NCBI GenBank assembly: GCA_017405085.1
Contig: JAFRBB010000022.1
Location: 1-32,210 of the forward strand
Source: Eubacteriaceae bacterium
GTDB taxonomy: Bacteria; Bacillota; Clostridia; Eubacteriales; Eubacteriaceae
Direction: 5' to 3'
DNA length: 32,210 nucleotides
Part shown: positions 1,522 through 28,713 of the stretch, piece after piece
How the letters are laid out: each line of letters starts with the position of its first letter
Numbering within the stretch: the stretch's first letter is position 1
Notes under the pieces: generated by a model
Databases searched by the model: none
What the model was told of the DNA's origin: nothing
The model's input: the letters and a program-made list of their open reading frames with translations, nothing else
Translations under genes and position numbers: made by a program

Positions 1522-3369
1522 ATGTCAAACGATGTTAAAAAAATGAGTAATGAAGCAATAGCGAATATAGCGGTTTTATCTTTTAAGAATTGTGAGGAGC
1601 TTTACGAACGCGAAAAATGCACATTCGAAGCAAGCAAGAGATTTTTTCAGTCGGCTTTACAACTTGACGCTGAACAGCATATTGAATTTCGGCTCGAGTG
1701 TAATAAACAATTCAAATGCGAAGTGGTGGCTTTTTCAGGACGAAATGATGTGTCAACCGATGATTTTCGTTGGATTTTTAAGCGGTGTGCGAACACTGTC
1801 GAGGCGGTACCGAAGATCAAAGAGACGATGGATCAAAACAAGAGAATCACGTATGCCCTTAGCTATACGTCGGACGAAACGAGAGAACAAGATCGTAGCA
1901 GAAGAAGATCATCATATTCCGATGAGTATTTTCAACAGATGCTTGATGAAATGCAAGATACAGGAGCATCCATTAGCATTCAAGCTGGTGTAGATTACGA
2001 GGGAAATCTTTTGAGTAAGGTCATCATTGAAATGCCGTCTTCCATGACGTTACGGATGAGAACCATGGTTTCTTTTGCCTTTCCCGATACTCGAGCTAAA
2101 ATCGTCACGGATGGGAATAACGCGGGTTATAGCGATATGCCTGTTCATTGTATTAAACAATTTATGGAGGGACTGCTCGACGCGCTAATGCAACGGAAGC
2201 AAGAGGAAAAGACCGAAAACCATGATGAGGAAGACACACAAGCATTGACGAGCGCTGACGCTGAGACTGACACGGCGGATGCGAGCGCGCCCAAGACAGG
2301 CAAAACGCCGATTGAGGAGCTGGGGCTGAGCGTTAGGTCATACGCTTGCTTGAAACGAGCCGGCGTCGACAGTGTTGAAACGCTGCAAACCTTGAGTGAA
2401 AAGGATTTTCGTCATATCAGAAACCTTGGCAGGAAATCGATGAATGAGATAAAACATCGACTTAAGGAATACATTATAATTAACGACTTAGACTTTATGA
2501 ATGCAGAACCGGTTCAGCTTGTCGGTCCGAGTTATACGGATATGCTGAACAAACTTGTTGGCCTTGAGGACGTCAAAGAACAGGTCAGGAAAATCACCGC
2601 TTTTGCCAAGATGAAGCAGGATATGGAAAGACTGGGCAAAACCGACATGCCGGTTGTCCTTAATATGGCGTTTAAAGGAAATCCGGGGACGGCAAAAACC
2701 ACGGTGGCAAGGATTATCGCGGGTATATTCAATGAGATCGGACTGCTTTCAAGTAATGAGATTGTCGAAGTGGGACGTGCTGACCTTGTGGGTAAGTATA
2801 CGGGGGAAACAGCTAACAAAGTCAAGGAGGTGTTTCAAAAGGCAAAAGGCAAATTACTTTTTATCGACGAGGCTTATTCTCTGTTAGATCAATGGGAATG
2901 GTCGTTCGGAGACGAAGCCATCAATACGATTGTTCAGGAAATGGAGAACAACCGAAATGAGATGGTGGTGGTTTTCGCCGGATATCCGGATAAAATGAAG
3001 GATTTTCTCGAACGTAATCCGGGCTTAAAATCCCGCGTTCCGTTTCATATTGATTTCGCGGATTACACGTCGGAGGAGATGATGGACATCGAGCGAATGG
3101 AAGCCGAAAATAGAGGATTTACGATTTTGACCGAAGCAAAAGAAAAGCTTGAATCCATTTGCAAAAAGGCATGCGGACATCCTGAAATGGGTAATGGTCG
3201 GTTTTGCAGAAATCTCGTGGAAAACGCGATCCTCAATTACGCGTCAAGGGTCTACGGCAAAGGGGAAGATGAGCCCACCGGAGAATTTGTTCTGACTGGG
3301 GATGATTTCGTCCTTCCTAAAGATATAAAGGAAGAAACGAAGGCTGCGCCAATGGGATTTTTGGCGTAG
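1522..3369 (+). CDS. alpha-CTD-like / CbxX-SpoVK-type AAA+ ATPase fusion protein
   Basis: This 615-aa protein has three parts. Residues 1-225 match nothing I recognise. After an acidic Ala/Thr/Asp-rich linker (226-260), residues 262-317 form a helix-hairpin-helix module like the RNA polymerase alpha C-terminal domain (core [17 protein letters not shown], then [13 protein letters not shown]). Residues 340-600 are an AAA+ ATPase of the CbxX/CfqX/SpoVK/EccA kind: Walker A GNPGTAKT (386-393), pore-loop-like GKYTG (424-428), Walker B LLFIDE (445-450), sensor 1 at FAGYPDKM (485-492), arginine-finger candidates R498/R504 and a sensor-2-like GNGRFCRN. Relatives remodel protein complexes (rubisco activase CbbX, type VII secretion EccA, sporulation SpoVK). 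The substrate here is unknown. The start follows AAGGAGG by about 8 nt. It is a single-gene unit with its own leader and terminator, next to a dead transposase. No transmembrane segment is seen. Confidence 0.85.
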
Positions 3370-6718: not shown

Positions 6719-7006
6719 ATGAATAAAAACAGTTTTTCCGCCCGCTCGGTCATCATCTATCTGGTCATTTCCATTATCATGACATTGCTCACCGCATCTT
6801 TTGTTTTGGAAAGTGTCTATCACAATTCCGACAGCATCGCCATGACGCCTCAGGGCATCAAAGCCGTTTACGAAAGCTGCATCGGCGCTTTGGATTTTTC
6901 CGATGCCGCGATGGCTTTGCAAAATACAACGTCGGTTCAAACAACCACCAACACTCAGGCGCCGGGGACCACTGCCGAACAGGCACCGCAGACATCCGCG
7001 CAATGA
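6719..7006 (+). CDS. small single-pass membrane protein, unknown
   Basis: A 95-aa protein I do not recognise. Residues about 9-31 (ARSVIIYLVISIIMTLLTAS) form one transmembrane helix or an uncleaved signal anchor after a short positively charged start. The rest would face outside and ends in a Thr/Gln/Ala-rich low-complexity tail (about 68-95) resembling a spacer. AAGGAGG lies 5-6 nt before the ATG, so it is probably translated. It sits alone between the folded element at 6465-6701 and a terminator-like hairpin at 7033. No cell-wall sorting motif is seen. Confidence 0.65.
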   Translation: MNKNSFSARSVIIYLVISIIMTLLTASFVLESVYHNSDSIAMTPQGIKAVYESCIGALDFSDAAMALQNTTSVQTTTNTQAPGTTAEQAPQTSAQ

Positions 7007-7032
7007 TAAAAAAGATCAATTATCACCAAAGG

Positions 7033-7059
7033 AAAAAGTAAGGCCGTGCCTTGCTTTTT
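7033..7059 (+). terminator. bidirectional terminator after the 95-aa membrane protein gene
   Basis: AAAAAGTAAGGC (7033-7044) pairs with GCCTTGCTTTTT (7048-7059) over 12 bp with one G-U and a 3-nt loop. The A run on the left and T run on the right would let it act in both directions. Confidence 0.75.
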
Positions 7060-7380
7060 CTGCATTTGAGCGATAAGCTCTTGTCAAGGGGCTGTGTGCT
7101 TTGGCACGATTGCGTGTCAAAGCACATCGACATTTGACAAAGCAACGGACGTGAGCACATTGCGCGATTCCACCCGCTTCGCGGGGTAGGTTCGCATGGG
7201 TAAGCCGTGCACTTTTCCACCCGCTGCGCTTGATAAGTTCGCATGAGCCAAATCAAAGATTTGGCTGCTCACTTAAGCGCGGGTGCGAATGGTTGCCGAA
7301 CCCGGGAGCGTAGCGGAGCAATTCGGGCTTATCGCTTAGCTCTCTCACTCGAATCCAAATGTGGTGAGCAAAATACTATA
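7060..7380 (-). repeat. palindromic repeat block, copy A of a dispersed family
   Basis: This non-coding block carries several hairpins: a long stem TGTGCTTTGGCACG/CGTGTCAAAGCACA (7095-7126) inside TTGTCAA/TTGACAA (7081-7087/7134-7140), CCCGC/GCGGG (about 7173-7185), CCAAATC/GATTTGG with a TTT loop, and a GAGCGTAGC hairpin (7296-7326). Its part 7216-7274 matches 27819-27877 in opposite orientation with about 6 differences in 59 nt. I see no gene in it. Confidence 0.75.
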
Positions 7381-7406
7381 CCAAAGTCAAAACGAAAAGA
7401 GGCAAT

Positions 7407-8894
7407 ATGAAAATCGTATCACCTTCGGAAATGGCCATAATGGATCAAAAGACTATCGAAGCGGGCATCACTGATTATGAACTCATGGAGCGCGCCGGCA
7501 CACGATGTGCGGAAATTATCATCCGTGATATTACTGCCGGAGAAAAAATTCTTGTGCTTTGCGGAACGGGCAATAACGGCGGAGACGGTTTGGTCATCGC
7601 AAGGTTGTTATACCATGCCGGATATGCCGTCACGACCTACATTTTCGGCGATCCCTCGAAAATGACGCCCTCTTGCAAAAAGAATGTTGAGAGACTGAAA
7701 GCCATCGGCGCATCTGTCCGATTAGGATCAAACGCTGAGTCTGTCTATTTCGCGAAAGCCGATGTGATCATCGACGCGGTATTTGGAAACGGACTCAAAA
7801 ACAGGCCGATTTCCCCGGATATGAAAGCTGTCTTTGATGCGGTGAATGAGGGGAACGCCCGGGTATTCGCCATCGACAGTCCTTCGGGACTTCGGGGGGA
7901 TAACGGTAAAACCATCGGAGCCGCCATCAAAGCGGACCGGACTTTGGTGATTCAAAATATCAAAACGGGCCTGCTACTAAACGAAGGCCCCGATACTGCC
8001 GGTGAGATCTGCATCGTTGATGTGGGCATTGACGAGAATACCGTGGAGACGGGCAAATATCGTTTGACCATTGATGATTTAAGCCCGATTGGAGGGAGAA
8101 AAAAACAATCCCACAAATATCAATACGGCTATGTCGGTGTCATCGCCGGGAGCCGGGGCATGCTCGGCGCGGGATTGCTTGCCTGCTCAGCCGCCATCAA
8201 AACCGGGGCCGGTCTTGTCGAAGGGTGGGTCGATGACCAGATCTATCCCATCATGGCTGCCAAAATGCCTTGGGAAATCATGGTCAAACCCTATGGGAAA
8301 CGCGTTGACGCCCTTGAAGCGTCCAAAGTAACGGTTTGGCTCTACGGTCCGGGATGCGGCAGAACCACCAATGACGGCGAACTGCTCCGGGCGCTTTTGG
8401 GTAGCGATAAACCCGTTGTCATTGACGCCGATGGGCTTTGGCATTTGTCAAGGCATCGTGATCTTCTGAAAAACCATCGCGCGCCCCTCGTGATCTCGCC
8501 CCACATCGGAGAATTTTGCGCCCTTTCCGGAATCGGTCAACAGGAATTAAGCGAAGATCCCGTTGCCATCGGGCGGTCCTTTGCGAAAGAAAACAATTTG
8601 ATACTCATCTTGAAAAATCATCACACGATGATCTTTACACCGGACGGCTGTGTCCGTTTTAACATGACGGGCAATCCCGGAATGGCCACAGCGGGCTCTG
8701 GAGACGTTCTTGCCGGGATGCTCGCAGGGTTTATTGCTCAGACAGAGGATCTCACCGTGGCGGTACAAAGGGCTGTTTGCATCCACGGTCTTGCCGGCGA
8801 TATGGCCCGGGATCATGTGGGGGAATGCTCCCTTACGGCTTCCGATATCATCAAGGCCCTTCCCGGGGCCATCCGACGAATCACTGAACCGTGA
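7407..8894 (+). CDS. nnr: bifunctional NAD(P)H-hydrate epimerase / ADP-dependent NAD(P)H-hydrate dehydratase
   Basis: A 495-aa repair enzyme for hydrated nicotinamide cofactors. The N-terminal half (about 1-210, YjeF_N fold) is the epimerase, with GTGNNGGDG at 53-61, VIDAVFGNGLKNRPI and FAIDSPSGLRGDNG. The C-terminal half (about 220-495) is the ribokinase-like dehydratase, with GYVGVIAGSRGMLGAG, VIDADGLWHLSRH, ISPHIGEFCALSG and the catalytic GNPGMATAGSGD (422-433) whose final Asp433 is the expected base. The length is normal for the fused bacterial form. Together they convert R- and S-NAD(P)HX back to NAD(P)H using ADP. A modest GAGG lies before the ATG. It stands first in the run leading to miaB, 57 nt downstream; no promoter was convincing in the repeat block upstream. 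Confidence 0.95.
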   Translation: MKIVSPSEMAIMDQKTIEAGITDYELMERAGTRCAEIIIRDITAGEKILVLCGTGNNGGDGLVIARLLYHAGYAVTTYIFGDPSKMTPSCKKNVERLKAIGASVRLGSNAESVYFAKADVIIDAVFGNGLKNRPISPDMKAVFDAVNEGNARVFAIDSPSGLRGDNGKTIGAAIKADRTLVIQNIKTGLLLNEGPDTAGEICIVDVGIDENTVETGKYRLTIDDLSPIGGRKKQSHKYQYGYVGVIAGSRGMLGAGLLACSAAIKTGAGLVEGWVDDQIYPIMAAKMPWEIMVKPYGKRVDALEASKVTVWLYGPGCGRTTNDGELLRALLGSDKPVVIDADGLWHLSRHRDLLKNHRAPLVISPHIGEFCALSGIGQQELSEDPVAIGRSFAKENNLILILKNHHTMIFTPDGCVRFNMTGNPGMATAGSGDVLAGMLAGFIAQTEDLTVAVQRAVCIHGLAGDMARDHVGECSLTASDIIKALPGAIRRITEP

Positions 8895-27642: not shown

Positions 27643-27960
27643 GCAGTAGTCCGGCTTTGTGGGTAAGCCGCGAGCGTGACGAGCGGCGCTTTAGCGAGGA
27701 ACAGCCGTTCCGAGCGGATGTTTTCGAGCAAAGCGAGAAAACTGCCCAAAAAAGACAAGTCAAAACCTAACGGAGCGTGACGAGCGGCGCATGAGTGAGG
27801 AACAGCCGTTCCGAACGTAAGTGAGCATCCAAATCTTTGATTTGGCCTATGCAAACTTATCGAGCGAAGCGGGTGGAGATGATTGTGAGCGTAGCGAGCA
27901 ATCTGACCAAAATCATTCCTCTGTTTGTCGCGTTATCGTTCATGATTTGTTGTTATGGGT
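27643..27960 (+). repeat. palindromic repeat block, copy B of a dispersed family
   Basis: This gap holds two 46-nt direct repeats with about 5 differences (27671-27716 and 27772-27817, each containing GGAACAGCCGTTCC), then the 59-nt sequence 27819-27877 that matches 7216-7274 in opposite orientation. Hairpins with a common GC-nnn-GC centre and different, self-complementary flanks occur at 27720-27742 (GTTTTC/GAAAAC) and 27881-27903 (GATTG/CAATC). I see no gene in it. Confidence 0.8.
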
Positions 27961-28650: not shown

Positions 28651-28684
28651 ATTCTTAAATTGTATATTTATTTATATAAAAAGA

Positions 28685-28713
28685 TAGACAAATTAATAAA
28701 ATGGGTGTATGAT
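28685..28713 (+). promoter_or_regulatory. candidate promoter of the ribbon-helix-helix gene
   Basis: TAGACA (28685-28690) and TATGAT (28708-28713) are 17 bp apart, each one mismatch from consensus. Transcription would start near 28720, right at the AAGGAG site, so the leader would be very short. Confidence 0.4.

Follow-up and report, generated by a model that had tools for sequence, protein, structure and literature searches.

A 59-nt repeat that was noted twice, in opposite orientation, in a 32,210-nt stretch of Eubacteriaceae DNA (hereafter the window; contig C63 of the source draft genome, G000) is, with a probability that we put at about 0.7, a 60-bp non-autonomous mobile DNA element. The anatomy of the unit, its copy number and the traces of its insertion are all visible in the sequence, and from them we infer how it may move.

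Two copies of a 60-nt unit in the window

As described in the initial annotation, positions 7216-7274 (minus) and 27819-27877 (plus) are identical at 53 of 59 bases, and the hairpin CCAAATC-TTT-GATTTGG is found in both copies. Profile and covariance searches place the real unit one base beyond this 59-mer, at 60 nt from TAAG to TGGA (TAAGTGAGC...GCGGGTGGA). Self-BLAST of the window returned the two copies as its strongest repeat pair (60 nt, 90% identity, E = 1.6e-16), well beyond what chance would give. Both indeed lie in gene-free spacers: copy 1 in 7007-7406, flanked by a 95-aa open reading frame (ORF) and yjeF, with yebC as the next gene upstream, and copy 2 in 27643-27954, flanked by thiI and a tetR-type regulator gene (Table 1). 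Copy 2 splits a repeat, M1-M2, between ...CCGAACG and GATGATTG..., and the filled and uninterrupted states of this host repeat occur 100 nt apart within the window.

Elsewhere in the window, a 615-aa ORF (1522-3369) combines an RNA polymerase alpha C-terminal domain with an AAA ATPase domain, and a 48-nt near-palindrome (28652-28699) lies between the tetR-type gene and the following ORF.

Table 1. Element copies, host repeats and a longer relative; positions are those of the window unless a contig is given.
Feature	Position	Strand	Basis
60-nt element, copy 1	7216-7275	minus	profile and covariance-model match over the whole unit; 90% identity to copy 2
60-nt element, copy 2	27818-27877	plus	profile and model match; self-BLAST
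Partial copy, 3' half ATGCGAACCTACCCCGCGAAGCGGGTGGA, after GGCTTACCC (end of another repeat)	7170-7200	minus	profile positions 29-59
Repeat array containing copy 1	7068-7392, right edge approximate	no strand	alignment with G001 locus L096
Uninterrupted M1-M2 host repeat, empty target CCGAGCG^GATG at 27716/27717	27672-27772	plus	
Second M1-M2 repeat, split by copy 2	27773-27817 + 27878-27915	plus	
73-nt relative TAAGTGACGATCCAAG...TTGG...ATCGGAACTTATCCGTAGCGAAGCGGA, longer loop	G000 C34:13060-13132, C49:492-564, C34:3030-3102; G001 C27:216-288		

Copy number and range

The source genome (G000; 2.2 Mb, 70 contigs, 96% complete) was searched together with uncultured Eubacterium RUG12931 (G001; 75% complete), the sole other same-genus genome among those searched. 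A covariance model was built from a 53-copy alignment (A1), which takes 53 of 58 full copies and omits C67:136436 (a deletion), two C52 copies, C6:7865 and C34:3371. At a cut-off of E 0.001 the model gave 60 matches in G000 (some of them partial, a few of the 73-nt relative) and 21 in G001, rather than only two copies in the genome, and among 38 other genomes of the family two had one weak match apiece. An order-wide run over 67 genomes with stricter filters returned 57 matches in G000, 21 in G001 and one weak match in each of the same two others. With at most three mismatches allowed, the 26-nt 3' tail was found at 49 places in G000 and 19 in G001, against 0 for a reversed-pattern control.

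The two window copies are neither a product of chance nor a local duplication. The initial proposal of a dispersed family, possibly mobile or structural, is supported by these dozens of copies, by filled and uninterrupted sites and by a covarying structure. Searches beyond these genomes gave no match in viral contigs (exact 27-nt pattern), in plasmids (copy 2 region) or in phages (copy 1 region), and a literature search returned no mention of the element or of RUG12931 among the matches listed. In both drafts, contig ends frequently fall in or near these repeats, so that copy numbers in such genomes are probably underestimated.

A covarying hairpin with a conserved tail

The element folds into a bulged hairpin, TAAGT-GA-GCAT-CCAAATC-TTT-GATTTGG-nnn-ATGC-GA-ACTTA, followed by a conserved 18-nt tail, TCGAGCGAAGCGGGTGGA. 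The 16 base pairs are arranged as the TAAGT stem, a GA-GA internal loop, GCAT, a 3-nt bulge and a 7-bp stem closed by a 3-nt loop, and pairing is kept in 98.4% of cells over 50 distinct rows. Cells in which both sides had changed numbered 39, compared with 9.6 in shuffled alignments (0 of 500 shuffles reached 39), and the covariation score was 0.165, compared with 0.094 (s.d. 0.006) in shuffles and at most 0.04 in slid versions of the structure; the count of pairs with double changes, 4, was not above shuffles (147 of 500 reached 4). Compensatory changes turn CCAAATC/GATTTGG into CTAAATT/AATTTAG or CTGAATT/AATTCAG, and GCAT/ATGC into GCGT/ACGC, which points to recognition of structure rather than of stem sequence. 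The consensus fold leaves the tail unpaired, yet the tail is conserved; in some copies it carries CCCCGCGAAGCGGG, which pairs in the one such copy that was folded. Rfam gave no match in the window at the gathering score and, at a lax threshold over 7000-7410, none overlapping the element.

The repeat had been described as lacking coding capacity, a description that has to be qualified: one minus-strand frame is open in 35 of the 39 copies of exactly 60 nt (two further frames are each open in 10 of these 39), and one copy sits inside a gene in this very frame. This copy (G000, C17:22212-22271) sits within a 363-aa old-yellow-enzyme-type ORF, to which it adds 20 codons, in frame and without a stop. 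The emptied ORF reads YGGSTENRIR, and every one of 27 homologous loci fits this form with a better score than the filled one; these loci amount to 25 distinct genes, L111/L128 and L113/L127 each being two pieces of one gene, and the comparison omits the G001 match L117, which is itself a copy of the element.

Junctions and uninterrupted target sites

Grouping 64 of 65 copies by their flanks (one had too little flank) yielded 26 contexts. Five context groups, made up of seven copies that are tandem neighbours or deletion forms, were then removed, and 21 contexts with 57 copies remained. The contexts are this few because many copies nest in other repeats that may have spread together; larger repeated blocks hold 17 copies in one M1-M2 context, 8 in an A-type context and 7 on the other M1 strand. 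Information content is 0.85-1.86 bits over positions 1-11 and the final 22 of the element (16 context representatives in the full-copy set); it does not exceed 0.35 bits at any of the 12 positions flanking either end, apart from 0.77 at +4 (21 contexts). The sole target tendencies are T or A at -1 (18 of 21 contexts) and G at +4 (15 of 21).

A direct flanking repeat of at least 3 nt was found in none of the 21 contexts, and repeats of 1-2 nt occurred near chance. In 12 of the 21 contexts, comprising 46 of the 57 copies, the joined flanks match an uninterrupted counterpart; one of these, for sC58, was discounted as a 26-nt match arising by chance, and 11 contexts were accepted. In nine accepted counterparts the 4 nt next to the junction are free of indels; the other two, sC73 and sC2 (a weak case with a further gap), differ there by 1 nt. 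Ten contexts are without an accepted counterpart in the available sequence, one of which, the in-gene copy on C17, is covered by the protein homologs described above. As read from these alignments, the junctions show no target duplication and, where a counterpart is comparable, no loss.

At several sites the element seems to have entered at the 3' edge of a hairpin loop (for example CTTTTGTGC^CAAAAG), but strict targeting of such loops is not supported: over 21 contexts their predicted frequency was 0.15 at the junction and ranged from 0.01 to 0.16 when the position was shifted by as much as 15 nt, and perfect stems were no more numerous at the junction than at neighbouring offsets. Among the 52 copies with called genes on both sides (from a crude ORF script), the nearest genes are arranged -+ in 21 cases, ++ in 13, +- in 11 and -- in 7; no single arrangement emerges, and the element lies mostly between genes. 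Head-to-tail and nested copies were also observed.

Orthologous sites in the second genome

Comparison of orthologous sites showed an array-free yjeF locus in G001 and a pair of arrays that differ by one unit. In this pair, G000 C58:18.2-19.0 kb and G001 C130 align along much of their length, and the stem of one G001 element contains another element, a 59-nt variant that the G000 ortholog does not have; the difference is exactly one unit, and no sequence is missing around it. The nested copy reads as a gain in G001, because it is the interrupted copy that departs from the 60-nt consensus. Where the window has the array of about 325 nt with copy 1, the orthologous yjeF locus of G001 reads ...CTGCATTT TATGTT GAAAAGAGG...; conversely, an array at G001 C237 corresponds to a shorter, different sequence at G000 C23. 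Each of these two larger differences may be a gain in one genome or a loss in the other. The thiI gene adjoining copy 2 had no full match in G001, a 75% complete assembly.

Composite forms and neighbouring repeats

Longer versions of the element were present in both genomes. A 106-nt form (C25:7380 and C6:16861) carries a 46-nt insert in the hairpin with both ends kept, and a 119-nt nested form with proper ends occurs at three G001 sites (C130, C110 and C19). That composite copies keep their ends suggests that the signal for mobility resides there and not in the interior of the hairpin. The 73-nt relative likewise keeps the TAAGTGA start and a similar tail, and other short repeats, with ends GTAAGCCGTGC, are joined to element halves at its stem. 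A 48-nt form that the model reported at C60:28504 proved to be the end of a GTAAGCC-type repeat fused to the 3' half of the element, not a separate unit. Reading up to 260 nt upstream of nine extra 3' tails, two of which sit at contig starts with one common sequence, we found neither the end of a gene cassette nor a gene-bearing long version of the element.

Several other repeats were seen alongside. A repeat of about 150 nt, GTAAGCCGTGCA...TGCACGGCTTAC, is joined to element halves in G000 (C6:1-172, C25:1-172, C2, C60, C11 and C58:18.3-18.5 kb); the C6 and C25 copies are identical at 171 of 172 positions, and both contigs start in it. The larger repeat at 7069-7336 of the window has inverted AGCGATAAGC ends (7069-7078 and 7327-7336), and AGCGATAAGC sites number 30 in G000 and 30 in G001, compared with 3 and 1 for a reversed control. 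The M1-M2 repeat, present at 27661-27772 of the window and at many other loci, contains the hairpins GAGGAACAGCCGTTCCGAG and TTTTCGAGCAAAGCGAGAAAA, whose stems seem compensatory by eye (GATTGT/GCAATC versus GTTTTC/GAAAAC).

Candidate enzymes and a proposed mode of movement

A single Y1 transposase was found in G000, an IS200/IS605 tnpA beside tnpB, with hairpin ends of its own (CCCACCCACTTTAGTGGGTGGG); it was rejected as the mobiliser, as these ends do not resemble the element. Matches to AGCGATAAGC beside this IS605 fall within apparent coding sequence and are probably due to chance. In G001 there is one decayed Y1 gene, IS200-like by eye. A REP-associated Y1 transposase (RAYT) was found in neither G000 nor G001, both incomplete drafts, and a GTAG or CGTC tag is absent at both ends of the element. 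We also discarded a RAYT link through relatives: near 15 Y1 loci (12 from genus g3 and 3 from g5, with about 1.6 kb on each side), the model gave a single match at E 0.33 and no element-like hairpin, and the g3 hairpin described below was not found there at E 0.01.

In the mechanism that we propose, an enzyme acting in trans would recognise the ends of the element, probably as a folded single strand, and the insertion step would leave no duplication, as in single-strand (HUH/Y1-like) transposition or site-specific recombination. The enzyme may be so far unrecognised or may since have been lost, or it may be a resident one whose own ends differ from those of the element.

A possible relative at tRNA genes in genus g3

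A hairpin in genus g3 of the same family, which we take to be possibly Acetobacterium, has the same 17-nt core, CCAAATCTTTGATTTGG, and the same TAAGT/ACTTA base, with a compensatory change from TAAGT/ACTTA to TAAGC/GCTTA. It comes after 5' pieces of tRNA-Lys, tRNA-Leu and other tRNA genes that break off at the D-loop position. Twenty loci gave 21 distinct rows (23 before L194, which repeats both rows of L176, was removed), and 16 of these rows have a GG[TC]A^TAAG junction. Intact tRNA genes are nearby in the eight g3 loci scanned for tRNAs. BLAST gave matches in 19 of 19 g3 genomes searched, many of them partial and obtained with a query that included flanking tRNA sequence. The tail differs from that of the element; the two hairpins are likely homologous, to judge by model matches at E ~5e-4 (~31 bits) in two of the 38 genomes. 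This hairpin (TAAGTAGAGAACCCAAATCTTTGATTTGGTGTGAATCACTTA; L132, L133 and L175-L194) often stands in tandem units near intact tRNA-Lys and tRNA-Leu genes.

Alternative explanations

The element might instead be a strict REP, spread by a RAYT since lost or missing from the assemblies. Its small imperfect hairpin, its mostly intergenic and clustered copies, its duplication-free junctions, as in IS200/IS605-type transposition, and the decayed IS200-like gene in G001 all suit such an origin; the unlike ends of the only Y1 element in G000, the absence of a GTAG or CGTC tag and the lone E 0.33 match at 15 Y1 loci of relatives speak against it, and we regard it as unlikely. Less probable still is that the hairpin is kept for a function, as a terminator, a stabiliser of mRNA 3' ends or a protein-binding site, with its spread being secondary: the conserved structure with compensatory changes and the mostly intergenic location would agree with this, whereas the inconsistent gene arrangement (on crude gene calls), the lack of an Rfam match and the nesting of copies in arrays and in a gene would not.

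It is very improbable that recombination or gene conversion among spacers rich in repeats, and not the insertion of a unit, gave rise to the copies. Many copies do lie within larger repeated blocks, but the same ends recur in 21 contexts, including unique coding DNA, and the orthologous pair differs by exactly one unit; at those sites this explanation is refuted as far as the assemblies are right. An artefact of draft assembly, which the frequent contig ends in or near repeats might bring to mind, can be given almost no weight, since two genomes share the same units, the same ends and partly the same arrays, and the in-gene copy keeps the reading frame.

Insertion of a small mobile unit remains our preferred reading. 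More tentatively, and with considerable doubt as to the whole, it may represent ultra-small mobile DNA of a new kind in the Eubacterium family: two ends (TAAGTG and the tail GCGGGTGGA) enclosing a tolerant interior (57-60, 106 or 119 nt), inserted without duplication by an enzyme outside both the RAYTs and the known IS transposases, nesting in itself and in other repeats, and with a distant relative at the tRNA D-loop position in a sister genus. It has long been asked how palindromes of 20-100 nt come to be spread over bacterial genomes, and this family offers clean material for the question, with exact ends, uninterrupted sites, a one-unit difference between species, an in-frame copy and, so far, no enzyme of the expected type found.

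Comparison with known systems

Like REPs and REPINs, which are thought to be moved by an IS200-like enzyme, the element is a very small imperfect hairpin, dispersed, mostly extragenic and clustered, with some copies in genes. It differs in that no RAYT was found, in the missing GTAG tag, in its length of 60 nt, in its mostly unpaired 18-nt tail and in its nested and head-to-tail copies. REPs are tagged by a tetranucleotide, GTAG or CGTC, where the hairpin begins at its foot (PMC3733652); the element instead starts with TAAG or TAAA and ends with GGA in the 53-copy alignment. According to the same article, CGTC-tagged REPs, including some Rickettsia palindromic elements (RPEs), have no dedicated transposase; its passages on CGTC repeats name five phyla, and the words Firmicutes and Clostridi- are absent from that text (PMC3733652). 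These REPs and the element are both short palindromes without a known transposase that also occur within genes, and the element differs in its stem and in having no CGTC tag. The one in-frame insertion in a protein gene, on C17, resembles those of RPEs.

MITEs such as RUP, Correia/NEMIS and ERIC are, according to the Delihas review (PMC2229807), non-autonomous, without a transposase of their own, and known to insert in frame into genes. Unlike them, the element has no terminal inverted repeats (5' TAAGTG, 3' GGTGGA) and no target duplication; it is also smaller than the 100-200 bp given for MITEs in that review (PMC2229807). The MITE trait of sharing ends with a resident insertion sequence does not hold for the IS200/IS605 in C7, the one compared. 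A mini-element derived from IS200/IS605 would differ in having a fixed short target motif, whereas the 5' flanks here carry at most 0.35 bits. The core motifs of integron attC sites are not apparent in the element consensus. The cyanobacterial SDRs of Elhai et al. (2008) are reportedly tiny mobile repeats that also nest in other repeats; they differ from the element in lineage, sequence and size. Overall, the element behaves like a REP or MITE and is best filed beside the palindromic repeats that have no dedicated transposase, outside the named families.
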